In this document: piece after piece, positions 10,086 to 27,432 of the stretch
Layout of the letters: the number at the start of each line of letters is the position of its first letter
How positions within the stretch are numbered: position 1 is the stretch's first letter
Virus record (IMG/VR): IMGVR_UViG_3300010379_000034
Location: 1-29,870 of that record
Origin: a virus
Reading direction: 5' to 3' (one strand)
Length of the DNA stretch: 29,870 nt
Program-made: the position numbers and the translations under genes
Notes under the pieces: model-generated
The model's database searches: none
What the model saw: the letters and a program-made list of their open reading frames with translations, nothing else
Told to the model about the DNA's origin: nothing

Positions 10086-11882
10086 TCAACTCAGCCAGAA
10101 TGTCCAGGTTTCCGTAGTGGTGGATGCGGTTGCTGAACTCGGGGCGGTGGCTCCCGAGTTCGAGAAATACCCTACAGGGACAGTCGGACCCGCCGCTGTG
10201 TACAAAGGCGCCGTGAGTACGATGAAACCAAAGAGGTATATCGTGCCTGCGTTAAGAGTGACCGGAGAAGTGAGCGGAACTGTATTGATGCCGACCGTGA
10301 CCCCGGTCACCTGCGGACCTGTCGCTACCAAGGTAAGGGTCGATCCGGACACTGAGTAAATAGCTGGCGTCAGTTTCGCCGTAGTAGCCGCTGAAAATCC
10401 ATAGAATTTAATGTTGGAGGCGGTAAAGTTGGCGGGCATCAAAAACATTGCACCCCCAAAAGCATTAACGTTGAACTCGGTGGCGGTTGCTGTCGGTACA
10501 AAATTCAACTGACCAAAATACGTCACTCCTCCTCCGACTGCACCTGTGCCTCCGGTGCCGCCCGTACCGCCTGTGCCGCCTGCGCCGCCCGCGCTTCCGG
10601 CCGCGCCCGATCCGCCGGTTCCGCCTGTGCCGCCCGCGCCGCCTGCCGATCCCGCTGCACCCGATCCGCCTGTGCCGCCTGTACCGCCGGTTCCGCCCGC
10701 GCCACCCGACGCACCGGTTGCGCCAACGCCGCCAAAAACTGCAATTTCGCAAACATCCCCGTTCGTGAACGCTCCCGATTCGCTGACGTATGCTACCGAA
10801 ATTTCGACCCAGGTGTTTGAGCCTTCATCCGTGACCGTGCCACTTGTGAAGATGGCATATGCGCCCGGCGTCGTGATGTCACGAATCAAGATCGTAGAGC
10901 CTACCGGGATATTGTCGAGCCACGTTCTGACATTTGGGTTTCCAGCATCGTTCGTTGTATTCATAAGCGCCAGTACCGTGACGCTCGACCATGTTGCGTT
11001 ATTCGCAAGGAATGTACCGGTGCCCGGTGATGCAAGGGTTGTTGAACTTGAGTAGAGCCACGAGAACGCCGGAGGCAGTCCCGTCGCTCCCGCAGGACCA
11101 ATGCCTCCTGTACCGCCCTCGCCGCCCGCGCCTCCGGTGCCGCCTGTTCCGCCCGTTCCGCCCGTACCGCCCGCACTGCCGTCTGATCCCGCTGCGCCTG
11201 AGCCGCCCGTACCGCCGGTCCCGCCTGCCGGTCCGGCTTGACTTGATGTCGCGCCGGTCCCGCCGGTCCCGCCGGTTCCGCCTGTGCCGCCCGCACTGCC
11301 GTCTGATCCCGCTGCGCCCGATCCGCCCGTACCGCCCGTGCCGCCGGTTCCGCCTGTGCCGCCCGCGCTGCCGTCTGATCCCGCTGCGCCGGTTCCGCCT
11401 GTGCCGCCCGTGCCGCCCGTGCCGCCATTCGATCCCGCCGCGCCTGATCCGCCCGTACCGCCCGTGCCGCCTGTGCCGCCCGCCGGTCCGGCTTGACTTG
11501 ATGTCGCACCCGTCCCGCCCGTCCCGCCTGTGCCGCCCGCGCTCCCGGCCGCACCCGACCCGCCCGTGCCGCCCGTACCGCCTGTGCCGCCTGCCGGTCC
11601 GGCTGCGCCCGACCCGCCCGTACCACCCGAACCTCCAGAGATGCCACTCGCACCCGTAGCGCCACTCACGCCTACTACACTGCCGGTGCCGCCTGTGCCC
11701 CCCGTACCGCCGCTCGCGCCGGTCGCGCCGGTCGAGCCGATACCGCCGACAGATTCGACCGCCTCTTGAAGTGTGCACCACTCCGAAGTCGGACCTGACG
11801 GGTTCTCAATCTCAATCTTCGCCGTACTCGGCGGCGTTGGATCATGTGTCGGGATTTCGCCGATGGTATAGGGACCGGCCAT
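10086..11882 (-). CDS. Collagen-like fibre protein with two Gly-X-X shafts
   Basis: This is a 598-residue protein. A short N-terminal part ([18 protein letters not shown], then [13 protein letters not shown]) leads into Gly-X-X repeats to about residue 270, dominated by GGTGGTGG and [15 protein letters not shown] globular beta-rich domain follows (~275-385, [15 protein letters not shown] then [12 protein letters not shown]). A second Gly-X-X block runs to ~465, and a C-terminal beta-rich domain ([18 protein letters not shown]) could be the trimerising or receptor-binding end. Such proteins form trimeric fibres on phage heads or tails. A GGGGAG site precedes the start. The Gly-Thr and Gly-Ser richness gives many hydroxyls that the adjacent glycosyltransferases might modify. 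Confidence 0.88.
10530..10735 (-). repeat. Gly-X-X coding repeat, second shaft
   Basis: GC-rich 9-base-scale repeats of the type GGCGGCACNGGCGGNACN encode the C-terminal Gly-X-X block. It includes the 50-bp stretch identical to the left edge of the window. Confidence 0.85.
10648..10697. repeat. 50-bp exact repeat shared with 1-50
   Basis: Identical to bases 1-50 in the same orientation; it lies inside the second Gly-X-X block. Confidence 0.9.
11075..11755 (-). repeat. Gly-X-X coding repeat, first shaft
   Basis: This long tandem-like array encodes the first collagen-like block. Longer units recur within it: a stretch encoding [11 protein letters not shown] occurs three times (near 11170, 11290 and 11363). 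One encoding [10 protein letters not shown] occurs twice (near 11228 and 11484). The variants are close at the DNA level, which points to recent unit duplication or slippage. Confidence 0.85.
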
Positions 11883-11895
11883 TTACAACTCCCCT

Positions 11896-13569
11896 TTACG
11901 TGACGGCGGAGGCGCCCTTTTTGCCGACCTTCCGCTTGAGGGGGGTGGGCGAGCCGCGACGGTGAGGCGTTACAGGGACGTTCCCCGTACCGATGGTGTG
12001 GGCGGGCGGTTCGTTCGGCGCCGGAGCCGCCGGGGGTACGAAGTCCTCCGGGTTGCCTGGATCGGTGCTGACGCCGCCAGCCGTATCGAGGAAGGACTCG
12101 TCCACCGCGCCGACGTTGGCGCCGTGCACCATCATACCGACCAGGGTCTCGCTTTCCTGCTCGATCTGGTCGTTCTCCTCGTCGAAGTCCATGTCCGTCA
12201 TGTCGTTCAGTTGCATCATGCGATGCAGACTCTTGAGCGACAGCGGCAGACCGAGTTGCTTAGCCTGCATGAAGGCGAGTAAGCTGGCGCCAGCCACGTT
12301 GGCATCCGCGAAGTCTGTCTGCGGCGACACCGAAACCTCATTCGGGTCCTCACCGACCCACTGCGCCGCGTACTTGAGAACTTGCTCAAGCGCCGCGCCG
12401 GCTGCGACCGCGATTTGCTGAATGGTGGTCGTGCGAGCCGCCACGCGGATGCGCAGTGCCTCGCCGCTCGCGCCCCTCGCGGAGCCGACATCCATGAACT
12501 GGACGCCGAAGCTCGCGGCTTGTTCTGAATCGTTCTTGATGGCCTGGCGCATTTCGCCGAGACCAGACGAACTGACGCCGATGTATTTTGCGTCACCGCC
12601 GATGCGCAGGTCGATCACACCCTTGTTGCCAATGCGGAGTTGTTGGTTCTCGTCTACGTCGGATACGTTGCCACCGATGATAACGAGAGTTTGCTGACCC
12701 TGATAGTGCAGAGTCGAGCGATAATCTGCTTCGCCGCGATAGATCGAGAGTGCGAGAGTGCTGAGTCCGAGGAGCGGCGGCTCGTCCGGCTCGGGCACAA
12801 GGTCGTTGGCACCGCAGAACACGAACGGAATATCGGTGAGCGCACGTCCGGCGATTGATGGCATAATGAAGTAGTCCGGGATCGGCATACTCGTGTCATT
12901 AACTTTTACGCACACCTGATAGGGTGCGTCGAGCGGCGGACGGGTCCAGCCGCTTTCCAAGCTCTCCGGCGTGCCGCGCGTCAGGATGCGGTGCTTACGC
13001 TCTGCGACCCATGTGAAGCCTTCGCGTTGGAAGCCTGACTCGTCGAGCACGACAAGATCGAGAATGTTCCGTCCCTCGTCGCGCCGACCGGCATCCCAAT
13101 TGATGATCCGCTCGGGATCGTAGAAAGCGATGTAAGGAAGCGCATTGTATGGGTCAACGCCCGTGGGCGCATCGACCAGCAAACCGCAGCGACCTTTGAC
13201 CAACTGTGCTTCGTTGATCCGGCGAAGCAACATCTGCATTCCCTCGCCCTGAATCGTTGCTTTGTCCATCATCGGAGCGAGACGTTGCGGCAGTTTGATA
13301 ACCGCCGGTTTCATGTGCATTATTCCTAACATCGCTTTTACCGCATCGCGAACGACATCATGGAAATATGCCCGAGTAAGGTAGGCTTCGTAGTCTTTCC
13401 AGCCGGGAGAGGACGGGGTGGTCATCCCGTCCTGGATCATGGCTTCGGAGGGAGGCAGGTAGTCTAGGCGCTTCTTCTTGATGGCTCGCTCACCCGCATA
13501 GGTGTCGCCCATCTGAATCCACTCGCCAGTCTTACTCACATATTGGGGGTGCTTGTCGTCGATAGCCAT
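11896..13569 (-). CDS. Phage portal protein, DUF4055-like
   Basis: This 557-residue protein has features of the DUF4055 portal family: a start with VSKTGEWIQMGDTYAGE, a Tyr-rich YEAYLTRAYFHDVVRDAVKA segment, then RRINEAQLVKGRCGLLVDAP, an aromatic IAFYDPERIINWD and a helical part with LHYQGQQTLVIIGG. The portal ring forms the vertex through which DNA enters and leaves the head. Length and position two genes downstream of the large terminase fit. The ~90-residue C-terminal tail is Pro/Ala-rich and basic and is probably a flexible extension. GGAGGG lies upstream of the ATG. Confidence 0.87.
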   Translation of the reverse strand: MAIDDKHPQYVSKTGEWIQMGDTYAGERAIKKKRLDYLPPSEAMIQDGMTTPSSPGWKDYEAYLTRAYFHDVVRDAVKAMLGIMHMKPAVIKLPQRLAPMMDKATIQGEGMQMLLRRINEAQLVKGRCGLLVDAPTGVDPYNALPYIAFYDPERIINWDAGRRDEGRNILDLVVLDESGFQREGFTWVAERKHRILTRGTPESLESGWTRPPLDAPYQVCVKVNDTSMPIPDYFIMPSIAGRALTDIPFVFCGANDLVPEPDEPPLLGLSTLALSIYRGEADYRSTLHYQGQQTLVIIGGNVSDVDENQQLRIGNKGVIDLRIGGDAKYIGVSSSGLGEMRQAIKNDSEQAASFGVQFMDVGSARGASGEALRIRVAARTTTIQQIAVAAGAALEQVLKYAAQWVGEDPNEVSVSPQTDFADANVAGASLLAFMQAKQLGLPLSLKSLHRMMQLNDMTDMDFDEENDQIEQESETLVGMMVHGANVGAVDESFLDTAGGVSTDPGNPEDFVPPAAPAPNEPPAHTIGTGNVPVTPHRRGSPTPLKRKVGKKGASAVT

Positions 13570-14238: not shown

Positions 14239-15897
14239 TTAGGCTCGTCGTGTCAAGTTTCCTGGCGGCTCGTAGTAGCGGAGCCGGTATCGCGTCGCAT
14301 CTGCACAGTGATCCTCCGAAGGCTCCATAACCTCGTCCATGTCGTCCTCGTCCCGTTGCAGTTGCGGAACGGTCCGAATCCAGTGTCGGCAATTCATGCA
14401 AACGAACAGACCGGGGTATTCGCGGAAGCCGCCGGGCGCCAGAGTCGCCGCCAGCTTTTGCCGCATCAATTGCCAGCCTTGCTTGCGCGATCCGGGTGCC
14501 TTGTCGGCCATTTCCCAAATAATGCCCCGGAACCGGGCACCGTTGACGACGACAGGCTTTTCCATTTCATTAGCGATGCTCGGGCGTCCGTCTGTCTCAG
14601 CCCAAATCTGAGTGTCGGCGGGTCCGCGTCGAATCCGAGACAGCCAGCCACCGCCATTGGGGTCCTGGTAGCGCCAGCCACGGTCTATTTCGTACTGGAT
14701 TATGCGCCTGACAATTTCGACGGGCGGTGCGTTTACCCCCTCGTCTTTGTGACCGCTCCACCCGTACAGTTCGCCGACGATAAACAGGTCGCCGCGCATA
14801 GTACGCATAGTCTTGCCGTCCGGGAGCGCCAAATCCTCGCCGTTGCTCTTTGCGAACCACAAGCAAGTATATGGCTTGGAGGAGCCATGATCGTATGCAC
14901 GCGTGATGTGCCAGTTCGCCGGTACTACAAACTCCGGCACCAAGATGCTATCCCGGTGCGTTGCCCAAATATCGCCGAACATGCCGCCTGCGGTGATGTC
15001 CCAATCGCCATCCCGCCACGCTTTCAACACTGATTCGCTTGGCGCGCTGGCGAGAAGGCGGTCGAGGTAGTGCGGGTCCACTTTGTTCAGAATCTTGTTC
15101 TCGCTGATGTGTCCGAAGATCGCGCGGCGCGAAGGGAGCTTGTGACCCTGTTCGTCTCGCGCGTCATCAATGAGCGGTCCAAGAATTTCGCCGGACTTGC
15201 GGTCACTGATATGGAACCGATCCTTGATTTCGTTGTGGCTAGGACCCCACGGATTAGTGGTGCTCCGAATCTTGCGTGGAATGCCCGGCACCGAACTGCG
15301 CAAGCACGAGAACATCAAGCCATAGCAGGTCAAGTCCGGCCACGTAATAAGCTCCTCGAAACCGATAAACGTGAACTCCATTCCGAGGTAGCGCCGGAAG
15401 TCCGTCTGGTCGGCAAGATGATCGAACACGAGCGTCTCACCGTCCGGAAACTCCCAACGATATTTGATTTCGTTGTAGAACGCCTTGGGCCAAAGACGCG
15501 GAAACCAACGTTTGCTCTTGGCGATCACTTCCTTCAACATCGGATGCGATTGGCGCAGAATGATGCCTTTGAGGGAGGGTCCCCATCCCTTGCCGACATC
15601 CATGGCGAAGGACATGAGGAGGGCGTCAGTTTTGCCACAGCCGGCACGCGTGCCGGCGAACAGGACTTCCGTTTCGGTTGATTCCAGGAACGCGGCTTGC
15701 GATCCTTTTTGCGGCGCCCACACGACTTCGACTTCTTGACCGTCATCGTCAATAATGATTGGAATATACTCGCCGTGTCGGAGTTTCCACCTGTGAACGG
15801 TCGGAATGCCGCGCGGCTTCAAGAAAAATGATCCGGTGTTTTTGTCGAAGGTAAACAACTTCGGCTTGTCGTCTTTGCTGCCTTTGTCCTTACTCAT
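14239..15897 (-). CDS. terL: Terminase large subunit
   Basis: This 552-residue protein has the two-part plan of a packaging motor. The ATPase half has Walker A AGTRAGCGKT (81-90), a Walker B strand with catalytic acidic residues FTFIGFEE (175-182) and a coupling-type motif RSTTNP (211-216). The C-terminal half carries nuclease-like acidic motifs, AYDHGSSKPYTCLWF and, near the end, EDHCADATRYRLRY. It pumps DNA into the prohead and cuts it, working with the portal and small subunit encoded nearby. GGAG lies 9 bases before the ATG. The usual length is 450-600 residues, so it looks intact. Confidence 0.93.
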   Translation of the reverse strand: MSKDKGSKDDKPKLFTFDKNTGSFFLKPRGIPTVHRWKLRHGEYIPIIIDDDGQEVEVVWAPQKGSQAAFLESTETEVLFAGTRAGCGKTDALLMSFAMDVGKGWGPSLKGIILRQSHPMLKEVIAKSKRWFPRLWPKAFYNEIKYRWEFPDGETLVFDHLADQTDFRRYLGMEFTFIGFEELITWPDLTCYGLMFSCLRSSVPGIPRKIRSTTNPWGPSHNEIKDRFHISDRKSGEILGPLIDDARDEQGHKLPSRRAIFGHISENKILNKVDPHYLDRLLASAPSESVLKAWRDGDWDITAGGMFGDIWATHRDSILVPEFVVPANWHITRAYDHGSSKPYTCLWFAKSNGEDLALPDGKTMRTMRGDLFIVGELYGWSGHKDEGVNAPPVEIVRRIIQYEIDRGWRYQDPNGGGWLSRIRRGPADTQIWAETDGRPSIANEMEKPVVVNGARFRGIIWEMADKAPGSRKQGWQLMRQKLAATLAPGGFREYPGLFVCMNCRHWIRTVPQLQRDEDDMDEVMEPSEDHCADATRYRLRYYEPPGNLTRRA

Positions 15898-15988: not shown

Positions 15989-16813
15989 TTAAGCGGTTTC
16001 AGGGGTGGCTTGGGATGACCGATTTGGCATCTGCAAGTCGTCATCAGATTCCCGCGCCGCCTCGTCAACTTCTTCGAACTCTACATCCTCGATTTCATGG
16101 TGTTTCATTTGATACGATGCCTCCAACTCTTTCGAGGATTTTGTCGCGCCGACGACGAGCACACCACCTACCTTGTGTTCGTGCGCAACTTGGATTCGAT
16201 TGCCATAACTGTCAGGACGCTTGCGGGCGAGCAACCAACGAGTCATTTCGGGGTCAAGCCAAGGGACCGTTTGCGGAACTGGTTTGCCGTCCGCATCCAA
16301 AAGATACGCTTCCTCGCCTCTAAGACCGAGCTTGATTAAATCGGGGTCAATTTCAAAGATGACGCCTTGCTGATTAGTGAGGATTTTGCGCTCGATACCA
16401 GTCGCGAGCTTTAGCGCATGGTCCTCGACTATATCCGTTCCCGCGTCCCACGCTTCCGCAAATAAAATATGAAACCGCTCGGTGCGACCGTCATCGACTG
16501 GTAAATCAAAACCATCGCCGGGATGCCCTTTTTTGCTGAGCTTAAGCCAATATCCTAGCTTGTACCGGCTGACACCACTGCCCCTGCAAATAGATGCAAG
16601 ATGCGGCCATGTTGCGGCGGCGCGAAGGACTTTTAGCATTGCTTTGGGATTGCGGATAGCAAGTTCACGAGCGGCATCGCCCATAATGCTGTCGCTGTGC
16701 ATTAGTTCTCTTTCGAGTGCCCGACCGCCCCGGTTTTTACGATTCGGACTTACGCGACCCTTCGCCAGCCCTATTGCTTCCGCCTCTGATGCGGGTTGTC
16801 CCTTGCGGCTCAT
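15989..16813 (-). CDS. Probable terminase small subunit
   Basis: This is a 274-residue protein encoded just before the large terminase. The basic N-terminus (GLAKGRVSPNRKNRGGRAL) and a segment PHLASICRGSGVSRYKLGYWLK (split here as two helices around residues 90-111) resemble a helix-turn-helix. The middle holds EAWDAGTDIVEDHALKLATG and LARKRPDSYGNRI, patterns seen in phage small terminases or terminase-linked DNA-binding proteins. The C-terminus is acidic (EIEDVEFEEVDEAARESDDD). Small terminases recognise the packaging site and form rings. The call rests on position and HTH-like sequence. Confidence 0.65.
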   Translation of the reverse strand: MSRKGQPASEAEAIGLAKGRVSPNRKNRGGRALERELMHSDSIMGDAARELAIRNPKAMLKVLRAAATWPHLASICRGSGVSRYKLGYWLKLSKKGHPGDGFDLPVDDGRTERFHILFAEAWDAGTDIVEDHALKLATGIERKILTNQQGVIFEIDPDLIKLGLRGEEAYLLDADGKPVPQTVPWLDPEMTRWLLARKRPDSYGNRIQVAHEHKVGGVLVVGATKSSKELEASYQMKHHEIEDVEFEEVDEAARESDDDLQMPNRSSQATPETA

Positions 16814-16899
16814 GCCGTCCTCCCAATCTTCATTCGTCGGGTCATCCCGACGTGCGCAGACATCCGCGCTGTATTTAACTTCGCTTGCGATATACTCAT
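16810..16899 (-). CDS. 29-residue basic peptide between phosphatase and small terminase
   Basis: This very short ORF overlaps both neighbours by exactly four bases: its ATG uses the last bases of the phosphatase-like gene, and its TGA overlaps the ATG of the small terminase gene. That perfect fit argues for real coupled translation. The product is basic and Met-rich (ARMSAHVGMTRRMKIGRTA). It may mainly serve to carry ribosomes across the gap. No function is recognised. Confidence 0.5.
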   Translation of the reverse strand: MSISQAKLNTARMSAHVGMTRRMKIGRTA

Positions 16900-17375
16900 G
16901 TCATCGCAAGATCAAGAAATCGAGGCTCCATGTGCCGCAAGTGTGCGACGAAGCCGGGGTTTGGATTCGCTTGCTTCCGACCCTTGCGGATCATGGCAAG
17001 CGCGTCGTCGAACTTAAGACCGAGCGTCGTCATCAACGTCGCACAATCGGCATAGCTCGACCGAGAAATGCCGGCGGCACACCCGAATATAATATCGCCG
17101 CCGCCTCGCAACCATGCCCGACAACTGAGAGCCAACGCTTCGAGCGTCGGATCGTCGAGCGCGGACTGTTCGTTATCGTCGATGCCGAAGTAGAGCACCG
17201 ACCGCAAATTTCCTTGGCGGACCCACTTGAGCGCGTCAACGCCCGCCGCCATTTCGACCAACATGAGCATCCGACCTGGGGTCTGGAACGTCACGATCCC
17301 TTCGTTCGGGGAGGCACCCTGGTATACGCGACCACGCGCCACGTCACCGATCAAGTTCACATCGTAGTCCACCAT
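16896..17375 (-). CDS. CX5R phosphatase-like protein (dual-specificity type)
   Basis: This 159-residue protein contains GGDIIFGCAAGISRSSYAD, a Cys-x5-Arg P-loop (Cys99, Arg105 from the ATG at 17375) followed by Ser and a helix. Further on is GLKFDDALAMIRKGRKQANP, which matches the 'sv.eAl..Ir..R..a.p' tail of dual-specificity phosphatases. Asp66 or Asp67 in FGIDDNE could be the general acid. The usual His before the Cys is Gly here. The family removes phosphate from proteins or RNA ends. A TTG start two codons upstream is possible. Why it sits beside terminase genes is unknown. Confidence 0.75.
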   Translation of the reverse strand: MVDYDVNLIGDVARGRVYQGASPNEGIVTFQTPGRMLMLVEMAAGVDALKWVRQGNLRSVLYFGIDDNEQSALDDPTLEALALSCRAWLRGGGDIIFGCAAGISRSSYADCATLMTTLGLKFDDALAMIRKGRKQANPNPGFVAHLRHMEPRFLDLAMT

Positions 17376-17377
17376 GG

Positions 17378-17554
17378 TCAAACATCCCGAATTATCTCGT
17401 CGATTTCCTTTTTGGTCTCTCGAACCAAATAGTCAACTCCGTCGATCACGACTCGCACTGGCACCGTCTCATAGATCAAATCTCGCCCGAGACGAACCCC
17501 GATGGGTTTGCCGGCGAGAGTATGCACAATAATGACCGCCGGCCAAGTTGCCAT
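17378..17554 (-). CDS. Small hypothetical protein, 58 residues
   Basis: AAGG lies upstream of an ATG at 17554, and the stop is three bases before the phosphatase-like gene's ATG. The protein reads as a compact beta fold (VIIVHTLAGKPIGVRLG, then VPVRVVIDGVDYLV) with a charged C-terminal helix (RETKKEIDEIIRDV). The good coding character and tight fit support it. No family is recognised. Confidence 0.65.
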   Translation of the reverse strand: MATWPAVIIVHTLAGKPIGVRLGRDLIYETVPVRVVIDGVDYLVRETKKEIDEIIRDV

Positions 17555-20574: not shown

Positions 20575-21069
20575 TTAACCGCCCCGATCTGGAGTCGGGA
20601 ACGGCTTGGGAGCCGCACCGCTATCGGTTTTCAGGGCGACCGCCGCCGGGAGCTTCGTGGAGCCGGAGAGGATCGCCTCGCCGAGCACCTTACCACTCAT
20701 GTCGTTGTCCACGCCCTGACCGTTGCCACCCTTCATGCCCCAAGACGAACTGAGTTTGCCTGGGACCCAAGTGCCATTGCTGGTCTGAGCACCAACGCCG
20801 CCCGGCTGACGCCGAAGCGTCTTGCCGCGCTCCGTCGGAGTCTCCGGGTCCATGACATCAGCCGCACTTGCGTCCGGACCAACGCCTGGATGAATCGGAG
20901 CGATTGCGCTCGTAACGCCGGAGGGTTTGTTTTGGTCAGTCATGCCCCACTTGGTTTCAAACGTGGTGAGCGCCTTCTTCGGCGCGCCTTTGCGCGCGTC
21001 GTAGTGAGTCTGCTCAACGAATTCGCCTTTGTCGGGTCCGGCCCCGAGTCCACTACCCTTGACAGCCAT
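20575..21069 (-). CDS. Small hypothetical protein with WGM motifs, 164 residues
   Basis: The ATG at 21069 follows GGAGGAGAG; a longer frame upstream is not supported. Two short motifs repeat in it: TFETKWGMTDQNKP near residue 40 and SSSWGMKGGNGQGVDND near residue 120. They recur as KTAWGMKDQSLDND in the protein at 21530-21832. A central AIAPIHPGVGPDASAADV resembles other neighbours. It is polar and probably flexible. Upstream lies the divergent plus-strand remnant at 21176. Confidence 0.7.
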   Translation of the reverse strand: MAVKGSGLGAGPDKGEFVEQTHYDARKGAPKKALTTFETKWGMTDQNKPSGVTSAIAPIHPGVGPDASAADVMDPETPTERGKTLRRQPGGVGAQTSNGTWVPGKLSSSWGMKGGNGQGVDNDMSGKVLGEAILSGSTKLPAAVALKTDSGAAPKPFPTPDRGG

Positions 21070-21175
21070 GTTACTCTCCTCCAAAAAGGAATTGTCAGCC
21101 GCACACGGCGACTTCGGGGCTACGCCCACGGTGGACCCTACCCGAAATTAACCATGATGGCAACCGGAGTTTCAC

Positions 21176-21499: not shown

Positions 21500-21530
21500 G
21501 ACCGGCTTGTGATCCGCTGACTACCGGCAT
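21324..21530 (-). CDS. 68-residue His-rich basic protein
   Basis: The start shares one base with the upstream TGA (TGATG). The product is basic, with LTAKGRAKLRAHGKKPVDP in the middle and a His-rich end (LPAHHHGIHAATHGKS) that could bind metal. The KVAHEFLHASKGMKFG part looks folded. No family is recognised. Confidence 0.6.
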   Translation of the reverse strand: MPVVSGSQAGLMGMSLTAKGRAKLRAHGKKPVDPKVAHEFLHASKGMKFGQLPAHHHGIHAATHGKSL

Positions 21531-21832
21531 CAGAGCACCCGATTTTTGCCCTTGTTGAACGATTGCAGCCGAGCGTCATCATCCGGGCCGTCGTTGTCGA
21601 GAGACTGGTCCTTCATGCCCCACGCAGTCTTGACCGCACTGGACTTCGGATGCCCTTGCGCCAAACAGGCTGAGGCGTCTGCGTCACTTGCGCAGACTTG
21701 ACCGCCGTCACTCGGACCGTTCATTTTCGGGTCTTTCGCCATAACCCCCTCCGCACGTTGAGAAACCCGAGCCTTGTGAAGCTCTACCTGTGAGGCGCGC
21801 GAGGCGTCGGGTTGCTGAATTTGATTCTTCAT
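21530..21832 (-). CDS. Small protein with LAQGHPKS and WGMK motifs
   Basis: This 100-residue protein starts behind GGTGG. It joins two of the reused motifs: DADASACLAQGHPKSSAVK is followed directly by TAWGMKDQSLDND, as if the two form one unit of about 35 residues. Equivalent parts occur separately in neighbours. The N-terminal third (QQPDASRASQVELHKARV) is helical. An internal start at Met31 is possible. The function is unknown. Confidence 0.7.
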   Translation of the reverse strand: MKNQIQQPDASRASQVELHKARVSQRAEGVMAKDPKMNGPSDGGQVCASDADASACLAQGHPKSSAVKTAWGMKDQSLDNDGPDDDARLQSFNKGKNRVL

Positions 21833-21875: not shown

Positions 21876-21899
21876 TCAAGCCTTCGCCGTGTCCTTCAT
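21876..21899 (-). pseudogene. Degenerate copy of the MKDAKGHGS leader
   Basis: Directly after the stop at 21899 (sharing TGATG) is ATGAAGGACACGGCGAAGG, which ends after seven codons. It matches the leader DNA if about ten bases after ATGAAGGA are deleted. It looks like the broken start of a lost family member. Confidence 0.35.
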
Positions 21900-22150
21900 C
21901 ACGCCTTCTCCCTGGACGGCAAATTGAACATCGCGCGCACACCCTCGCGCACCTGGGCATTCGACGCTCCCTTATCACGCCAGTCAGCGATCTTCTGCGC
22001 ACGCTCACTGTCCGACATCGGCACACCTTGCCGAATGCCCTCTTGATGTGCGGCGGGTGCCCGGATCATATTGACCAATCCCTTGACGGCGGTGACTTGA
22101 CTGCTCACTCCGCCATGCGAGTCGCTGCCATGTCCTTTTGCATCCTTCAT
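21899..22150 (-). CDS. Leader-tagged small protein (MKDAKGHGSDSHGG)
   Basis: This 83-residue protein has the shared leader, GGAGG upstream and a four-base overlap with the previous tagged gene. After the leader come VSSQVTAVKGLVNMI, the second family motif AAHQEGIRQGVP and a helical end (DSERAQKIADWRDKGASN, then AQVREGVRAMF). The helical end resembles a small DNA- or protein-binding bundle. No known family is recognised. Confidence 0.75.
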   Translation of the reverse strand: MKDAKGHGSDSHGGVSSQVTAVKGLVNMIRAPAAHQEGIRQGVPMSDSERAQKIADWRDKGASNAQVREGVRAMFNLPSREKA

Positions 22151-22308
22151 GACTTCCTCCGGGATAACCGAAAACCGTTTTCGTGCGGTGATGGCGACGA
22201 AAGAAACGTCCAGGCGCGCCGAGCTTCTTTTAGGCTAGTCGATCCAATCGTTGTCTTGGGATCGTTGCCGAAGCGGCGAGTACCGCCGCGGCCCTTAGCG
22301 TCTTTCAT
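22147..22308 (-). CDS. Variant leader-tagged peptide (MKDAKGRGG)
   Basis: This 53-codon ORF overlaps the Arr-like gene at its start and the next tagged gene at its end, each by four bases (ATGA). The leader is changed after Gly6 (MKDAKGRGGTRRFG), so it lacks the HGS part. The body (IGSTSLKEARRAWTFLSS, then a basic tail) is unrelated to the others. The double coupling argues that it is real. Confidence 0.6.
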   Translation of the reverse strand: MKDAKGRGGTRRFGNDPKTTIGSTSLKEARRAWTFLSSPSPHENGFRLSRRKS

Positions 22309-22655
22309 TTTGCTCCCCTGACTTCACTAACAACTCGTAGAGGAAACTCTGACGCCCATTCCGAATCTCGTGCATCACGCCGATGTCCGAACGGTCCGGT
22401 AGGGCGTACCTCATAGACATGAGTCCCGTAGCCACGTGCGCCTTTGTAGATGTCCGATCCTTCGGGTTGTGTAGTCATGTAAACATGCGTCATTGACCGA
22501 ACAAAGTTTCCGGGGTGCCCCGGCTCAATCAATGCGCCGGAAGCGAACTGTCGAGCGGACCCATGATAGAAACGCTCCTCTTGACCGATCTCATTCGGAT
22601 ACCGCTCGTTCCGCAACGATCCCAATGAATGGATCGGTCGGGCGTTCGGTAACAT
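22305..22655 (-). CDS. Arr-like ADP-ribosyltransferase
   Basis: From residue 29 the protein reads FYHGSARQFASGALIEPG, then THVYMTT, GYGTHVYEVRPTGPFG and EFPLRVVSEV. These match, in order, the conserved blocks of rifampin ADP-ribosyltransferase (Arr): the HG start with catalytic-type His31, the Tyr59 strand, the PTGP turn and the final 'PLrivgev' strand. Arr moves ADP-ribose from NAD to its target. The acidic pair usually after PTGP is replaced by HRRDARD, so Asp94 or Asp97 would have to serve. It overlaps a leader-tagged ORF by 65 bases in another frame. As a phage protein its target may not be rifampin. Confidence 0.75.
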   Translation of the reverse strand: MLPNARPIHSLGSLRNERYPNEIGQEERFYHGSARQFASGALIEPGHPGNFVRSMTHVYMTTQPEGSDIYKGARGYGTHVYEVRPTGPFGHRRDARDSEWASEFPLRVVSEVRGAK

Positions 22656-22746
22656 CGGGTAGTGTCAGCGGCGTCTTACCTACCGCATCTGTTCCTGCGG
22701 CATGCGCGCCGCGCGGATCGGAGCCATGTCCTTTTGCATCTTTCAT
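22591..22746 (-). CDS. Leader-tagged ORF joined to the Arr-like frame
   Basis: This 51-codon ORF has the full leader (MKDAKGHGSDPRG) and a second family motif (AHAAGTDAVG), then ends at TGA inside the Arr-like gene. A +1 shift at that TGA would continue straight into the Arr-like frame (AVSE then EIGQEERFYHG) and give a fusion of about 146 residues, close to the size of other tagged proteins. Either a programmed shift, a recent one-base loss or a sequencing error could explain it. The membrane peptide gene upstream overlaps it by four bases. Confidence 0.65.
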   Translation of the reverse strand: MKDAKGHGSDPRGAHAAGTDAVGKTPLTLPDVTERPTDPFIGIVAERAVSE

Positions 22747-22835
22747 GTCACTATCGCCCAAAACATAACTGCGAAGGCAAACATCACGAAGATGATCGTA
22801 ATGATATCGCCCACCCCTACCTCATGGTGTCGCAT
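22743..22835 (-). CDS. 30-residue membrane peptide
   Basis: The stop overlaps the next ATG by four bases (ATGA) and GGGTGG lies upstream. After a short polar start (MRHHEVGVGD) comes a very hydrophobic stretch, IITIIFVMFAFAVMFWAIV, sufficient for one membrane span. It is too short for standard gene finders. Confidence 0.5.
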   Translation of the reverse strand: MRHHEVGVGDIITIIFVMFAFAVMFWAIVT

Positions 22836-22851
22836 AAGTTATCACCACCCC

Positions 22852-23052
22852 TCACGTCGAGAAATCTTGCCCAAGCTTCCAATCGGGGACCACCTGAGCA
22901 TGTCCGGTCTGACCTTCATAGAAATGTCGAAGTGTCTTGCGCCCGAGTTTCGTCAAGCCTTTGAACGCCGACTTCGGGATATTATTCACACCGGTTTGAT
23001 GCGCGACTAAACCGCCGCGCGGATTTGAGCCGTGGCCCTTGGCGTCTTTCAT
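22852..23052 (-). CDS. Leader-tagged small protein (MKDAKGHGSNPRGG)
   Basis: This 66-residue protein begins at 23052 behind GAGGAAG, with the full leader and the second motif AHQTGVNNIP. The body (SAFKGLTKLGRKTLRHFYEG) is basic and helical, and the end is ordinary (TGHAQVVPDWKLGQD). It overlaps the upstream ORF by four bases. The function is unknown. Confidence 0.75.
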   Translation of the reverse strand: MKDAKGHGSNPRGGLVAHQTGVNNIPKSAFKGLTKLGRKTLRHFYEGQTGHAQVVPDWKLGQDFST

Positions 23053-23165
23053 GGCTTCCTCGTATACGCTATTGCGATCCCGATCCACGATACGTCGTGG
23101 CGGATTACGAAGCGCCGGGGCGTCCGCGCAAATGAGATAAACGAAAGGACTTCGGCGTCGCTCAT
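23049..23165 (-). CDS. 38-residue hypothetical peptide
   Basis: This ORF starts behind GGGGGTAA and overlaps the next tagged gene by four bases (ATGA). The product is basic with alternating hydrophobic residues (VLSFISFARTPRRFVIRH, then WIGIAIAYTRK) and could contact a membrane. No family is recognised. Confidence 0.5.
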   Translation of the reverse strand: MSDAEVLSFISFARTPRRFVIRHDVSWIGIAIAYTRKP

Positions 23166-23169
23166 GACT

Positions 23170-23538
23170 TTACCCCCGACGAGTTGGATTTGAAATATTC
23201 GGAGCGTCCCAACTATTCGCTGATTTACGTTCAACCCACCCCTTTGCCGATTGCACAGAGCCAAGAAGTCCCCAACTTCCCGATTTCCCTGCTCCGGTGT
23301 TGAAATCTTTGTGAAGCTGCCCGTAGTAATACCCCTTTGGTACCGGACCGCCGGACAATGGCGGCTTCTCGGTTCCAGGCTTAAATACCGAAGCGATAGG
23401 CGGCTCGTTACCCGAAGCTAGTCGGTGAACCCCATCTAATCCTTTTGCCCATGTATAAGTTTTTGGTTGCCCAATTTGATCGACGCCCTCTGCGTGAGCG
23501 CCTTTCGGGTCGGACCCGTGTCCCTTGGCGTCTTTCAT
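23170..23538 (-). CDS. Leader-tagged protein (MKDAKGHGSDPKGA), 122 residues
   Basis: The leader is followed by the second motif AHAEGVDQIGQ. The body holds aromatic and Gly-rich segments (KTYTWAKGLDGVHRLASG, then PKGYYYGQLHKDFNTGAG and SGSWGLLGSVQSAKGWV) and looks folded, mainly beta. GGGGG lies upstream of the ATG. No family is recognised. Confidence 0.75.
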   Translation of the reverse strand: MKDAKGHGSDPKGAHAEGVDQIGQPKTYTWAKGLDGVHRLASGNEPPIASVFKPGTEKPPLSGGPVPKGYYYGQLHKDFNTGAGKSGSWGLLGSVQSAKGWVERKSANSWDAPNISNPTRRG

Positions 23539-23543
23539 GTGAC

Positions 23544-23990
23544 TTACCCCCGATGTGGCCGAACATGGGTTTCCGGTCGGCTTTTTGGATTCTTATTCAC
23601 GCTGCCTTTGTCGGCTTTGAGCGATATTTCGAGCTTGTGATTCTGCGCCTGGGCGGGGGAAGCCGTAGGTTTTGGTGTTACGAACTTTATAGGTTTTGGT
23701 GGCATGGGAGGTTTCTGACCAAGCCATGCAGGCTTGCCGTCTTTCTTGCCGAGCGTGGCGCCGTGCCGTCCGAGGAATCTCGCCACGGTCACGCTGGTAG
23801 CCTTCGGACCGACGCGCCCGCGTATATGTCCGTTATGGTCGAAGATAGGAATGTGAGGAGGTTGTACCGTACCCGGCGGGTCCGGCTTTACCTCTTTCCG
23901 GGTAAGCTCGCCAATGTGTGGCACCTGAGACTTAATTGGCCACTGCTTCGGCTTCTTACTTTGATCTTCTTGTTTCACTGGTTGTACCAT
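23544..23990 (-). CDS. Hypothetical basic Pro/Lys-rich protein, 148 residues
   Basis: This protein lacks the leader. It is rich in Lys, Pro and Gln (QSKKPKQWPIKSQVPH at the start). A central segment, IPIFDHNGHIRGRVGPKAT then VARFLGRHGATLGKKDG, looks like a small fold. The end is basic and unfolded (KSRPETHVRPHRG). It lies between a ParB-fold gene and a tagged gene in the same direction. The function is unknown. Confidence 0.65.
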   Translation of the reverse strand: MVQPVKQEDQSKKPKQWPIKSQVPHIGELTRKEVKPDPPGTVQPPHIPIFDHNGHIRGRVGPKATSVTVARFLGRHGATLGKKDGKPAWLGQKPPMPPKPIKFVTPKPTASPAQAQNHKLEISLKADKGSVNKNPKSRPETHVRPHRG

Positions 23991-23996
23991 GGCAAA

Positions 23997-24335
23997 TCAA
24001 ATCCTCTTGCTGTGAAGATACGAAACAGCCCGAACTTTCTTGACGCCTTCGAGCGCCTGCGCAGCCAGCCGATGATGACCGTTATTTAGATACCACTTCT
24101 TGTTCGAGTCTTGGACGCCGTAAAGGTCCCGGTTCTCGGGCGTCAGTTCACTAACGCGGATCGGTTTTATTTTCTTGCCCATGCGAATGCTGTTTTGCAT
24201 TCGTTGAACTTTCTCGACATCGGCGTAATCTTGTAATGGATAGCCGGTGCTCGCAATCTCGCGGATCGGGATCATTATCGGGGTCAGCTTCTTAGTCGCT
24301 TCCTTGACCCCCTGTTGGTGCGCTGGACCACTCAT
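23997..24335 (-). CDS. ParB/sulfiredoxin-fold protein
   Basis: This 112-residue protein starts with MSGPAHQQGVKEAT, a short piece also found inside the tagged protein at 26436-26891 (ISGPAHQAGVQQVG). It then reads IPIREIASTGYPLQDYADVE, KIKPIRVSEL and WYLNNGHHRLAAQALEG, ending with a VRAVSYL strand. The GHHR turn and the order of strands are those of ParB N-terminal or sulfiredoxin-like domains, which bind or hydrolyse nucleotides such as CTP. Phage versions are often nucleases or regulators. GAGGA lies upstream, and the gene overlaps the previous one by four bases. Confidence 0.7.
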   Translation of the reverse strand: MSGPAHQQGVKEATKKLTPIMIPIREIASTGYPLQDYADVEKVQRMQNSIRMGKKIKPIRVSELTPENRDLYGVQDSNKKWYLNNGHHRLAAQALEGVKKVRAVSYLHSKRI

Positions 24336-24607
24336 GTCATCCTCTTGTCCGGTTCGATCTTTGTCCCTACGGTTTCGTGTGCGTTCCGAAAACGCAAACT
24401 ATGCGGTGTCAAGTGCGGGTATCCAGTACGACCACCCTCCATTCCCTTGTGGGTTTTAACCGGGACTGATTTGGGATGACCCTGAGCAAGCGCGCTCGCT
24501 ACTTCGGTGGGCGTGAGTTCGTTTATGTCGCGCGGAGTCGGTGCGACCGCATGGGGCGCCGGGTTGAATGCAACAATCTTTTCAAGTGGCGATACTTTCG
24601 GCGTCAT
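24332..24607 (-). CDS. Small protein with central LAQGHPKS motif
   Basis: This 91-residue protein has an N-terminal half with Pro and Ala, then TEVASALAQGHPKSVPVK followed by THKGMEGG, the best example of this reused motif. The end (HSLRFRNAHETVGTK) is basic. It overlaps genes on both sides by four bases, placing it in one translational unit with the ParB-fold and GNAT-like proteins. Confidence 0.7.
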   Translation of the reverse strand: MTPKVSPLEKIVAFNPAPHAVAPTPRDINELTPTEVASALAQGHPKSVPVKTHKGMEGGRTGYPHLTPHSLRFRNAHETVGTKIEPDKRMT

Positions 24608-25083
24608 TTCGCACCTTTGAGCTTCATGAACACAACGTCAGGTGTGCCGTATTTCTTCGTGTCCCACTGCGGAGGCGCCTGCTTGGGATCGAACGGAGCG
24701 CGACCGGTCTCCTCGAATCCATGCTGCTTGTAGATTTCCGGGAGCACCGGAGCGAAACAGTCCAACGTCTTGCCGCCCCGAGCTTTGGCTTCCTCTACCG
24801 CCGCGCCACCCGCACCCTTGACACCGCTGTTATTGAAAACGCTCTGGATGTCGCCGGTCGGACTGACCGCCCCGCCGACCGTACCCGCCGGATTGATGAA
24901 CAACTTGAATTGTGCAAGGTCCTCCGGAGCGTGTGGTGTGAACATGCCTGGACGGCTCGACTGAGCACGCGCGGCTAAAAACTCGGTCGGCGATGCCGAC
25001 CGAAACTTCTGCCCGATTTGGTTCACGCCGTCTTGATGTGAGCCGCCGCGTGGGTCGGAGCCATGACCTTTGGCATCTTTCAT
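24604..25083 (-). CDS. Leader-tagged GNAT-like acetyltransferase
   Basis: This is a 159-residue protein. After the leader (MKDAKGHGSDPRGG) and second motif (SHQDGVNQIGQ), residues ~35-155 read FKLFINPAGTVGGAVSP, then GVKGAGGAAVEEAKARGG, PEIYKQHGFEETGRAPF and GTPDVVFMKL. This order (a strand pair, a Gly-rich turn with helix, the 'Y...GF' segment and a last strand) fits a GNAT fold of the kind seen in phage polyvalent proteins. Such enzymes acetylate proteins or small molecules using acetyl-CoA. The Gly-rich loop is not a textbook Q/R-x-x-G-x-G/A. GGGAG precedes the ATG. Confidence 0.65.
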   Translation of the reverse strand: MKDAKGHGSDPRGGSHQDGVNQIGQKFRSASPTEFLAARAQSSRPGMFTPHAPEDLAQFKLFINPAGTVGGAVSPTGDIQSVFNNSGVKGAGGAAVEEAKARGGKTLDCFAPVLPEIYKQHGFEETGRAPFDPKQAPPQWDTKKYGTPDVVFMKLKGAK

Positions 25084-25439
25084 CTTCGTCTCCCGCCACC
25101 TTGCTGAGCTTGCTGATCCTCTTGTTCTTTTTGATCCAGCATAGAAAGATGCGACGTTTGAAGGCCGTGCTTTTTCGCAAGATTGTGCGTGTGCATTTCA
25201 CCGCTGCCGCCGCCTCCGCCGCCGCCGCGACCGCCTCCGCCGCGACCGCCCATACCGCCTCCGCCGCTACCCCCGCCACCGCTACCGCCGCCTCCGCCGC
25301 CGCCGCGCTGACCTTTCTTCTTGGCAAAATGCGCCATACGCCCCGGTCCGAACCGCTGCGCTTGCGCTTGCTTTCCTTTTGCATCGGCTTCGCGGGTCTC
25401 TATCGACGCCTGCCGAGCTTCTTCTGTCCAGCCGGACAT
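25080..25439 (-). CDS. Glycine-rich small protein, 119 residues
   Basis: The N-terminus MSGWTEEARQASIETREAD resembles the starts of the two GAKSAPVP proteins (MAWSDAARQAARAAEAA). It is followed by a basic part (RMAHFAKKKGQRG), about 45 residues that are mostly Gly with Ser, Arg and Met, and a polar helical end (MLDQKEQEDQQAQQ). The glycine tract is likely an unfolded spacer. It overlaps the tagged GNAT-like gene by four bases. Confidence 0.65.
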   Translation of the reverse strand: MSGWTEEARQASIETREADAKGKQAQAQRFGPGRMAHFAKKKGQRGGGGGGGSGGGGSGGGGMGGRGGGGRGGGGGGGSGEMHTHNLAKKHGLQTSHLSMLDQKEQEDQQAQQGGGRRR

Positions 25440-25449
25440 GACATCCTCA

Positions 25450-25698
25450 TTATGTTATCGCGCAAGCGTTGGGCACGCTGCCGTTATCAGGAGTGACACG
25501 AAGGAACTGACCCGAGTCGTAGATAATCCGACAGCCGCTTTGTGGCGTCGGCAACGTACCAGAGTGCAATGGCACCGGAGCCGACTTTGCCCCGCCGCCC
25601 GCAAGAGATTGAGCGGCTTGTTGATCGCTTACGCCGCTGCCCTTCTTCGCCGCTTCGGCGGCGCGAGCCGCCTGTCGAGCCGCGTCTGACCAAGCCAT
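25450..25698 (-). CDS. Small protein with GAKSAPVPLHSG motif
   Basis: This 82-residue protein is a paralogue of the one at 19036-19278. The Ala/Arg-rich N-terminal helix (WSDAARQAARAAEAAKKG) is followed by SLAGGGAKSAPVPLHSG. It then has its own end, GCRIIYDSGQFLRVTP. GGGGAAG lies upstream. The shared helix plus short motif suggests binding to one common partner. Confidence 0.7.
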   Translation of the reverse strand: MAWSDAARQAARAAEAAKKGSGVSDQQAAQSLAGGGAKSAPVPLHSGTLPTPQSGCRIIYDSGQFLRVTPDNGSVPNACAIT

Positions 25699-25701
25699 TG
25701 T

Positions 25702-25848
25702 TTACTTCCCCTGCCTCTTGAGGCGATTGATTTCCCGCTTCCCGCTGGCGAAGCCACGAGCTTCGGCTGCGTGATCGCGCGGAGCGCCGTACTTTTCACG
25801 GAAACCGGATACCGCGTCGCGCCTGCGCGAGCGCGGCGCTCGCCGCAT
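25702..25848 (-). CDS. 48-residue basic peptide overlapping a tagged gene
   Basis: This frame overlaps the 3' end of the tagged gene at 25796-25990 by 53 bases. The best start is the ATG at 25848 with GAGG nine bases before. The product is basic (FREKYGAPRDHAAEARGF, then SGKREINRLKRQGK). It is also exactly +1 to the tagged frame at its TGA stop, so a fusion to the leader protein is possible. Confidence 0.5.
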   Translation of the reverse strand: MRRAPRSRRRDAVSGFREKYGAPRDHAAEARGFASGKREINRLKRQGK

Positions 25849-25990
25849 TCTGGTCATCCTCATTCCAGGCAGTGCGTCCAGCCGCCCGCATACTCTTGTT
25901 GCCAGCGTCCATGCCAACGCCAGTCGCCATTCCCGGCGTCATCGTCGGACCGCCGCGTGAGTTTGAGCCGTGCCCTTTGGCATCCTTCAT
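25796..25990 (-). CDS. Leader-tagged small protein (MKDAKGHGSNSRGG)
   Basis: This 64-residue protein has a GGGAG site upstream. After the leader come Met/Gly-rich residues (PTMTPGMATGVGMDAG) and RTAWNEDDQNAASAALAQAR. The latter resembles both the WGMK and the ALAQGHPKS motifs of neighbours. It lacks the HQxGV motif. It may extend by a +1 shift into the ORF at 25702. Confidence 0.7.
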   Translation of the reverse strand: MKDAKGHGSNSRGGPTMTPGMATGVGMDAGNKSMRAAGRTAWNEDDQNAASAALAQARRGIRFP

Positions 25991-25991
25991 G

Positions 25992-26429
25992 TCACGCTCC
26001 CGCTGATTTCAAAAACCGCCCCGAATTGAAGTTTGCGTTGCTGCGACCCAACTCGCCCGCGAAGTGCGTGGCTACTGAGCCGCGTAATGTGGATGGCAAG
26101 TTGGCGATAGCTCCGGCAACCGCCTCATAGTGGCGGCTCTGCATCCCAGGAGCCTTACTTTGTGTGCGACCCATGTCGCCGGTCATCGCTGCGGTCTGGA
26201 ACTTGCCTGCGTTGAAATTCGGATTCGTACCCTTCAAGGCATCCGCGAAATGCTGCGCAATGTTGCCTTTCGCATACGAAATATCTGCGGGGAGCCGACT
26301 AATCGCTCCCGCGATGGCTTCGTACTGGCGGCGCTGCATAGCGACCGGACGGCCAACTTGCTGCACGCCCTCTGAGTGCGCACCGGCTCCGCCGTGCGCT
26401 TCGCTGCCGTGTCCCTTGGCATCCTTCAT
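25992..26429 (-). CDS. Leader-tagged protein with duplicated ~50-residue module
   Basis: After MKDAKGHGSEAHGG and GAHSEGVQQVG, this 145-residue protein has two copies of one module: QRRQYEAIAGAISRLP...IAQHFADALKGTNPNFNAGKF (residues ~32-78) and QSRHYEAVAGAIANLP...VATHFAGELGRSNANFNSGRF (~96-140). The pattern 'r..YeaiA.ai...va..fa..l...NpnFn..rF' is that of a small helical domain often found singly in phage proteins. AGGGG precedes the ATG. Its role is unknown, but two copies suggest two binding faces. Confidence 0.75.
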   Translation of the reverse strand: MKDAKGHGSEAHGGAGAHSEGVQQVGRPVAMQRRQYEAIAGAISRLPADISYAKGNIAQHFADALKGTNPNFNAGKFQTAAMTGDMGRTQSKAPGMQSRHYEAVAGAIANLPSTLRGSVATHFAGELGRSNANFNSGRFLKSAGA

Positions 26430-26435
26430 GGCACT

Positions 26436-26891
26436 TTACCCCTTGTAGGTGCGGCTCGATCCGCTCTTAATGTCGTCGCGCTCGTCGGCTTCCCAATGCG
26501 CAGCCGCTTCCTTGCGCACAGCCGGAGTGAACATCTTATGCCAAGGCTGGTCGGCACTGCCGAACTGCTTGGCGTAAGACTGCGCAGCGCGGTCGGCGTG
26601 ATAGCCCCACAGCTTTGTCGCCAACGTCGGGTCATAGACGCCCTTGTCCATTTTCTTGCCGAGGTTGTCGCGGATCGGCTGTGTTGACTGCCGATTAAGA
26701 TTGGCGTCGTTGTCGGCAAAGAGCCGCAACTCGCGTGATTCTGGACCTTCCGGCGGCAACGCCGGTCGCTGACCGACTTGCTGCACACCGGCTTGGTGTG
26801 CCGGTCCGGAAATGTAAGCGGCATTTGACTGAACCACGGGGAGATTTCCGCCACCGCGCGCGTCCGAACCGTGTCCTTTTGCATCTTTCAT
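26436..26891 (-). CDS. Leader-tagged protein with phage helical module, 151 residues
   Basis: After the leader, an ISGPAHQAGVQQVG motif (residues ~27-40) matches the start of the ParB-fold protein. The rest reads ESRELRLFADNDANLNRQ, IRDNLGKKMDKGVYDPTLA, LWGYHADRAAQSYAKQFG and FTPAVRKEAAAHWEADE. This is a helical arrangement seen in small phage proteins of unknown role ('Nd..ly.....i..nl..k...g.yd...a..l'). It overlaps the next tagged gene by four bases. Confidence 0.75.
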   Translation of the reverse strand: MKDAKGHGSDARGGGNLPVVQSNAAYISGPAHQAGVQQVGQRPALPPEGPESRELRLFADNDANLNRQSTQPIRDNLGKKMDKGVYDPTLATKLWGYHADRAAQSYAKQFGSADQPWHKMFTPAVRKEAAAHWEADERDDIKSGSSRTYKG

Positions 26892-27145
26892 TTTAGCCTC
26901 CCGCCGCCTCGATCAAACGAGACGCCCTGTAGATTTCGAATTCCTTGCCCAAGCGCCGCTTGGTGTCCCGGACCTGTGCCGGACATCCGCGCCCGCAGGT
27001 CGGCAATTATCCGCATCGTGTCGATGTTGTCCGAGGCCATTGGCTTCCCGGCGCCCGCAGGCGAGCGAATGCCAGGACGTGACGCTTCCTCAATGGTCGG
27101 CATCCGATTACGAGGATCGCTGCCGTGTCCTTTTGCGTCTTTCAT
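26888..27145 (-). CDS. Leader-tagged small protein (MKDAKGHGSDPRNR)
   Basis: This 85-residue protein has GGAGG upstream and four-base overlaps on both sides. The leader lacks the final GG. A helical DNIDTMRIIADLRARMSG segment is followed by GPGHQAALGQGIRNLQG, a looser version of the second family motif. The end is basic and Gly-rich. No family is recognised. Confidence 0.72.
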   Translation of the reverse strand: MKDAKGHGSDPRNRMPTIEEASRPGIRSPAGAGKPMASDNIDTMRIIADLRARMSGTGPGHQAALGQGIRNLQGVSFDRGGGRLK

Positions 27146-27432
27146 GACTTCCTCCGTCCAGGCGTGCCACGCGGGAGTGCGAGGTTGCGCGCGCGGTCCA
27201 ATTGATCCTGAGCCGCCGCAAAGCTCGATCCGAGCGGCGAGATATACGACTTGGGATGTGCCTGCCCGAGCGCGTTCGCCGCCATTCGATCCGAGACCGT
27301 GGTCACAGGAAAGTGCGACTGATCGACCATCTTGCCGCGAATGACCCGATCCCGCGCTGCGGCGGTCAAGCCGGTGGGTGCGATAGAAGTGTTCCCGCGC
27401 GCGTCCGAACCGTGTCCTTTTGCGTCCTTCAT
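27142..27432 (-). CDS. Leader-tagged protein carrying a second reused motif
   Basis: This is the first leader gene in the direction of transcription (96 residues, GGAG upstream). After MKDAKGHGSDARGN it has AARDRVIRGKMVDQSHFP and DRMAANALGQAHPKSYISP. The latter is a relative of LAQGHPKSxxVK, so this protein joins the leader family and the motif family. It ends in a basic helix (FAAAQDQLDRARNLALP). Confidence 0.72.
   Translation of the reverse strand: MKDAKGHGSDARGNTSIAPTGLTAAARDRVIRGKMVDQSHFPVTTVSDRMAANALGQAHPKSYISPLGSSFAAAQDQLDRARNLALPRGTPGRRKS

Follow-up and report, generated by a model that had tools for sequence, protein, structure and literature searches.

A shared leader on a cluster of small phage genes

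The window analysed here is a 29,870-base stretch of an uncultured phage (IMG/VR record IMGVR_UViG_3300010379_000034, positions 1 to 29,870), and our subject is a short N-terminal leader peptide carried by a run of small open reading frames (ORFs) between positions 21899 and 27432. Eleven ORFs, all on the minus strand and all with ATG starts, bear the leader, and a purine-rich, ribosome-binding-like sequence lies upstream of most of them. Ten begin with exactly MKDAKGHGS; the eleventh, a 53-amino-acid (aa) ORF at 22147-22308 (MKDAKGRGGTRRFG), has a degenerate variant, MKDAKGRGG. The initial annotation of this DNA had placed all eleven starts correctly and had given the leader as MKDAKGHGSDxxGG. 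Its first nine residues stand in ten of the eleven ORFs, whereas residue 10 may be D, N or E, and the glycine pair at residues 13-14 is frequent and not fixed (6 of 10).

Read along the minus strand, the cluster begins directly after a strong terminator-like hairpin (27478-27455). Tagged ORF 1 (27142-27432, 96 aa, MKDAKGHGSDARG...) contains an S3 motif of the AHPKS type, and ORF 2 (26888-27145, 85 aa) belongs to a small helical family (IxxLRxRMxxTGPGHxxxLxQGIxN) with homologues at loci L002 and L027. In the next two ORFs the leader is followed by a motif termed S2: ORF 3 (26436-26891, 151 aa; S2 is AHQAGVQQVG) has a body in common with L034:423, and ORF 4 (25992-26429, 145 aa) carries a duplicated helical module matching phrog_2922 (E=6.6e-12). 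ORF 5 (25796-25990) encodes 64 aa. ORF 6 (24604-25083, 159 aa) combines the leader and an S2-like motif with a body of the GNAT acetyltransferase type (phrog_2563, 3.6e-16), while S2 is again present in ORF 7 (23170-23538, 122 aa), which has a paralogue in the same phage at G001:2087 (L028/L070), and in ORF 8 (22852-23052, 66 aa). ORF 9 (22591-22746) is the 51-aa N-terminal part of an Arr-like gene split by a frameshift: the body continues in another frame, in a part without its own leader (22305-22655; phrog_17296, 2.9e-4). L022 and L047 contain this same split sequence, whereas the tagged homologue at L034:3181-3627 is intact (Arr-ms match, 7.4e-7). The degenerate variant at 22147-22308 and ORF 11 (21899-22150, 83 aa, S2 at residue 34) complete the set. 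The initial annotation had described three of the bodies as GNAT-like, as a duplicated helical module and, from the relation of frames, as Arr-like.

Untagged ORFs on the same strand share some of these motifs. Two small ones contain S3 (AGGGAKSAPVPLH at 25450-25698; AQGHPKSVPVK at 24332-24607), one with a ParB-like body (23997-24335; phrog_4715, 6e-4) starts with S2 (MSGPAHQQGV), and in another (21530-21832) S3 is followed by WGMKDQ. Through much of the cluster the spacing of adjacent ORFs is tight, with four-base overlaps or gaps of a few bases, suggesting an operon directed towards the genes for the terminase small and large subunits (TerS and TerL) and the portal.

The leader is maintained as a peptide at start codons

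Across phages, the invariant core of the leader consists of the start codon, optionally one additional residue (MAKD...), and then KDxxGHGS. All 190 distinct occurrences in the loci examined are at a start codon; the leader DNA is therefore no mobile repeat found away from ORF starts, a possibility that the initial annotation had raised. At 168 dereplicated sites the third codon positions vary silently, Ser9 is encoded by both codon families (AGY 129, TCN 39), and DNA identity drops to background (0.26-0.3) immediately outside the leader. Free third positions, the use of both Ser9 families and background flanks indicate that selection acts on the peptide, as had been argued from the third-position differences within the window. 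An AlphaFold2 model of the commonest body family gives the leader (residues 1-16) a predicted local distance difference test score (pLDDT) below 50 and the body about 90; the short leader is probably unstructured.

Residue 5 agrees more often within genomes than between unrelated pairs (0.55 vs 0.36), and residues 5 and 10 are both somewhat more alike within genomes. We do not use this homogenisation as evidence, because the contigs were recruited by one spelling of the leader. An AHxxGVxxIG motif occurs in 55 of 192 tagged proteins and a GPKSAPVPVH-like motif in 25, never both in one protein; the two may be secondary addresses.

The leader, always N-terminal, is present in dozens of related IMG/VR contigs, which are genome fragments of uncultured phages mostly from soil. 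A degenerate DNA pattern for it matched 53 stretches in IMG/VR and only three in 257 Gb of bacterial and archaeal genomes: two contigs of Hyphomicrobiales metagenome-assembled genomes, from which we infer the phage hosts, and a chance match inside a Prevotella gene. Allowing any three of the nine residues to change, a search of the fetched loci returned 87 exact matches, 64 at 8/9 and 33 at 7/9; five shuffled targets gave nothing above 6/9, and one of the five gave 19 matches at 6/9. In almost every match KDxxGHGS stands immediately behind the start codon or one residue further on. A pattern for the core had 200 matches in 30 contigs, against none for the reversed pattern. Relaxed-pattern scans brought in further contigs; for the MAKD pattern we estimate about 2-3 chance matches, and three loci (L112-L114) do in fact have no KDxxGHGS. 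A literature search for the exact leader, with most subscription journals outside its reach, found no description of it.

One leader precedes about 60 types of body

The 188 distinct tagged proteins fall into 61 body clusters, that is, about 60 body types, the largest cluster being chained through short shared modules. This bears out the earlier view that unrelated bodies stand behind one leader. Tagged proteins are 24-205 aa long (median about 126-131) and mostly have a single body, and the better-covered contigs encode 5-13 per genome. Recognised domains are ART-PolyVal, Arr-ms, GNAT and ParB_N, and the PHROG families matched are 3170, 17808, 7884, 2563 and 2922.

Several bodies are homologous to parts of much larger phage proteins. 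In Synechococcus phages S-CBP42 and P60, proteins annotated as internal virion proteins (1610 and 1639 aa, respectively) contain stretches related to the commonest body. The AlphaFold model of this body (mean pLDDT 85.5) matched 23 phage proteins in BFVD (E up to 0.001), several of them 767-1102 aa long, and had no significant match by fold in the PDB. For the GNAT body at 24604-25083, the homologous regions are part of the minor capsid protein encoded by Microbacterium phage Caron and a stretch of a Limnohabitans phage DC33 protein 3126 aa long, and a structure model of low confidence resembles GNATs in the PDB (E 2.7e-4). In Mycobacterium phage ScoobyDoobyDoo, the helical module at 25992-26429 has a match within a protein of 1168 aa that is encoded near the portal gene. 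A sequence search of the PDB returned no match, and PADLOC found no defence family among 75 tagged proteins.

Tagged genes accompany packaging and structural genes

The portal family and TerL of the window are present in 25 of 30 contigs; these TerL proteins are 49-56% identical to that of the window, except in two contigs that have the window's own TerL. In every contig with TerL (25/25) the tag genes lie upstream of it on the same strand. Tagged genes are thus encoded alongside virion structural genes, as polyvalent proteins are. Several genomes have additional tagged genes far from the main cluster, and at five loci ART-like or untyped small tagged proteins are encoded downstream of the tape measure gene. 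In another type of phage (L103) the order is TerL, P22-type portal, tag gene, scaffold and major capsid protein (MCP). A tagged gene is located at the end of a divergent portal gene in L107 and adjoins TerS in L108.

Tagged proteins are basic and nearly devoid of cysteine

The median isoelectric point (pI) of tagged proteins is 9.9, with about 95% above 8. Cysteine is absent from 167 of 169 dereplicated tagged proteins, compared with 163 of 451 untagged conserved ORFs of similar length (Fisher p 3e-54), these controls coming from a simple ORF-calling script with a conservation filter, so that some are possibly spurious. In total, tagged proteins contain 2 cysteines in 20,863 residues (0.010 per 100 aa, vs 1.59 in the untagged ORFs). 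As a yardstick, we measured proteins of well-known phages. T4 internal proteins IPI-III are cysteine-free, with pI 8.9-9.5 and 95-193 aa; cysteine is also absent from T4 gp2, T7 gp7.3, gp15 and gp16, and P1 Sit, Ulx and DdrA. T7 gp6.7 and gp14 have one cysteine each, P1 DarA, DarB and DdrB have 0.16-0.40 per 100 aa, and the other T7 genes have 1.35. Avoiding cysteine may aid proteins that cross the oxidising periplasm, and a high pI would suit a DNA-filled head. The tape measure and scaffolding proteins of the leader-bearing phages are likewise cysteine-free (L072, L073, L075, L033 and the scaffold genes).

Comparison with known systems

The T4 capsid targeting sequence comprises about 10 N-terminal residues and can load nearly any protein (PMC7697877). 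IPI-IPIII of T4, which are enclosed in the head (PMC7697877), resemble the tagged set in that a short N-terminal signal is common to different small proteins that are basic and, by our measurements, cysteine-free. However, the T4 sequence is MKTYQEF, which by eye, with no alignment statistic, has only the initial MK in common with KDxxGHGS. T4 also has few cargo genes and a cleavage step by the head protease, whereas about 60 body types stand behind the leader and we found no S78 protease in 15 contigs. In phage P1, the first 30 residues of DarB suffice for packaging and 9 do not, and according to the authors BLAST reveals no consensus among Dar N-termini (PMC9024508). The Dar proteins are delivered to the host, and an N-terminal signal is enough to bring a reporter into the head (PMC9024508), which resembles what we propose for the tagged set; they differ from that set, with its one shared leader, in lacking an N-terminal consensus.

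Polyvalent proteins fuse 2-15 domains per chain and are predicted to be injected early (Iyer et al. 2017, PMC5512222). The parts of that paper drawn on here mention solo versions of polyvalent domains near late genes and do not mention a shared tag. As described there, polyvalent proteins resemble the tagged set in their effector domains (ART-PolyVal, GNAT, ParB), their virion-gene context and their predicted early injection, and differ in being fused multidomain chains instead of small proteins each with a common leader (PMC5512222). At 24-205 aa, tagged proteins do not contain the at least two disparate domains per chain that define polyvalent proteins; they do contain polyvalent-type effector domains (ART-PolyVal, GNAT, ParB_N, Arr-ms, phrog_3170) and have fold matches to large phage proteins. 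In the T7-like Synechococcus phages P60 and S-CBP42, the internal virion proteins contain the segment homologous to the commonest tagged body but are 1610-1639 aa long and have no such leader. The tagged set would act like T4 targeting and bears the domains of polyvalent proteins, and by sequence belongs to neither.

A candidate virion-targeting signal

The position of the leader, its conservation as a peptide, the location of the genes, the homology of the bodies to virion proteins and a composition like that of ejected proteins lead us to propose that the leader serves as an N-terminal cargo signal, which would target a set of injected effectors to the virion, with a probability of about 0.74. 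During late expression, each tagged protein would be made beside the packaging and head genes, and its leader would be recognised by a head component, which might be the scaffold, the portal, the shell or a conserved core protein encoded at 20575-21129. The tagged protein would thereby be enclosed in the procapsid together with DNA. When the particle infects a new host, this small and basic cargo without cysteine would be ejected into the cell along with the DNA. There its bodies (ADP-ribosyltransferases, GNAT acetyltransferases, ParB-like and other domains) could target host proteins or defences ahead of phage gene expression. One signal would thus serve about 60 body types in the manner of the T4 internal-protein targeting sequence. 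The initial annotation had suggested such a T4-like tag and a multi-effector set delivered by it. Sorting or packaging of such a set gains support from the virion-protein homology of the bodies, the location next to head, packaging and tape measure genes, and the T4-internal-protein-like composition; removal of the leader by a head protease does not, since no S78 head protease was found in 15 contigs, which are fragments.

That negative protease search also weighs against the proposal, as do several other points. The phages are uncultured, and we infer encapsidation from sequence. Searching 50,697 phage records by tblastn, a method weak for short peptides, with a hand-written consensus, a 24-aa segment of leader plus S2, and two more distant tagged proteins identified no tagged relative. 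Some tagged ORFs are very short or have no recognisable domain, and the window's own Arr-like gene is disrupted. Finally, small low-complexity proteins that never leave the producing cell could also come to be basic and cysteine-poor, and the cysteine contrast itself depends on the untagged controls described above.

The leader could instead be a localisation or interaction tag inside the producing cell, for docking at a late assembly site or for a chaperone-bound pool, with the tagged proteins left unpackaged. The inferred nature of encapsidation leaves room for this, as does the existence of very small tagged ORFs without a domain. We consider it unlikely, as homologues of the bodies lie within annotated internal virion or minor capsid proteins and the cysteine depletion resembles that of known ejected proteins, unlike other phage genes. 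Sorting to the tail or to a conduit for ejection, such as the tape measure or tail tube, and not to the head interior, would accord with those tagged ADP-ribosyltransferase genes that immediately follow a tape measure gene, at loci whose tape measure proteins are also cysteine-free. However, most tag genes adjoin TerS, TerL and portal, the one in L103 lies between portal and scaffold/MCP, and a high pI fits DNA-filled heads, which makes a tail destination distinctly improbable.

Two further explanations place the function in the nucleic acid. If the leader were a 5'-mRNA or translation-initiation element, with the peptide as a by-product, this could account for the preference for A-ending codons (AAA, GCA, GGA) at codons 2-6 relative to the local background. 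Such a preference is common near start sites, and the free third positions, the use of both AGY and TCN at Ser9 and the unchanged peptide after an extra codon (MAKD...) speak against an mRNA element. A mobile DNA repeat, or a recombination seam spreading cassettes, could explain many copies per genome on different bodies, and exchange could underlie the within-genome likeness at residues 5 and 10; yet the leader never occurs off an ORF start, and DNA identity is at background right outside it. Start-codon confinement, codon variation and background flanks led us to reject the mRNA-element, mobile-repeat and recombination-seam readings, to each of which we give only the slightest chance.

Returning to the virion-targeting signal, a bolder version of it is that KDxxGHGS after the start codon is a transferable code for loading the virion in several lineages of uncultured phages. 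Any small protein gaining it would become injected cargo, the arsenal could be swapped gene by gene, and the secondary motifs would be sub-addresses; we put this forward tentatively, at a little under even odds. If leader-bearing proteins are indeed cargo, sequence alone would be enough to list the injected effectors of a phage, much as secreted proteins are recognised by their signal peptides. The roughly 60 body types, mostly of no known function, would then be candidate host-takeover or anti-defence proteins acting before phage transcription, and the conserved core of about nine residues would offer a means of directing chosen proteins into phage heads. Cysteine content, near zero both in tagged proteins and in ejected proteins of T7 and T4, might also provide a simple test by which ejected virion proteins in general could be recognised.

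Other features of the window

Between the tag cluster and the terminase genes lies the gene for the conserved core protein (20575-21129, minus strand), which is present in most contigs of the group, has no PHROG match and contains leader-resembling repeats (GMKDQ and WGMKDANGxGV-like). Large proteins, several of them ART-like, have RDxxGRWTxG N-termini that resemble KDxxGHGS, both in the window and at L004, L032, L038, L086 and L101. Two minus-strand genes of the window encode cysteine-free proteins of this kind, one of 1044 aa (4994-8128; RDPHGRWTRG) and one of 565 aa and polyvalent type (2878-4575; RDLLGRWT, a weak ART-PolyVal match and a phrog_3170 domain). The likeness of the leader to these repeats and N-termini is suggestive and could be chance, because one of the five shuffled targets also yielded its 19 matches at 6/9.

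The minus strand also encodes TerS (15989-16813; phrog_1482, 1.1e-3), TerL (14239-15897; phrog_979, 7e-30), the portal protein (11896-13569; phrog_145, 3e-105) and the head scaffolding protein (978-1838; phrog_206, 3.7e-36). A dual-specificity phosphatase-like gene (16896-17381) is just upstream of TerS, a 598-aa collagen-like protein with GGTGGTG repeats is encoded directly after the portal gene (10086-11882), and a glycosyltransferase group 1 gene (8198-9337) lies within the structural block. The C-terminal NPWxxxxWxxTxQG motif of the scaffold recurs once or twice near the scaffold gene in the window and at L017, L039 and L049, with two copies in a small window protein after the scaffold (465-920), and may be a second capsid-binding motif. 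TerL frames of 815-907 aa occur in contigs G030 (L018), G007, G012 and G024, with a split match in G030, which suggests an insertion such as an intein.

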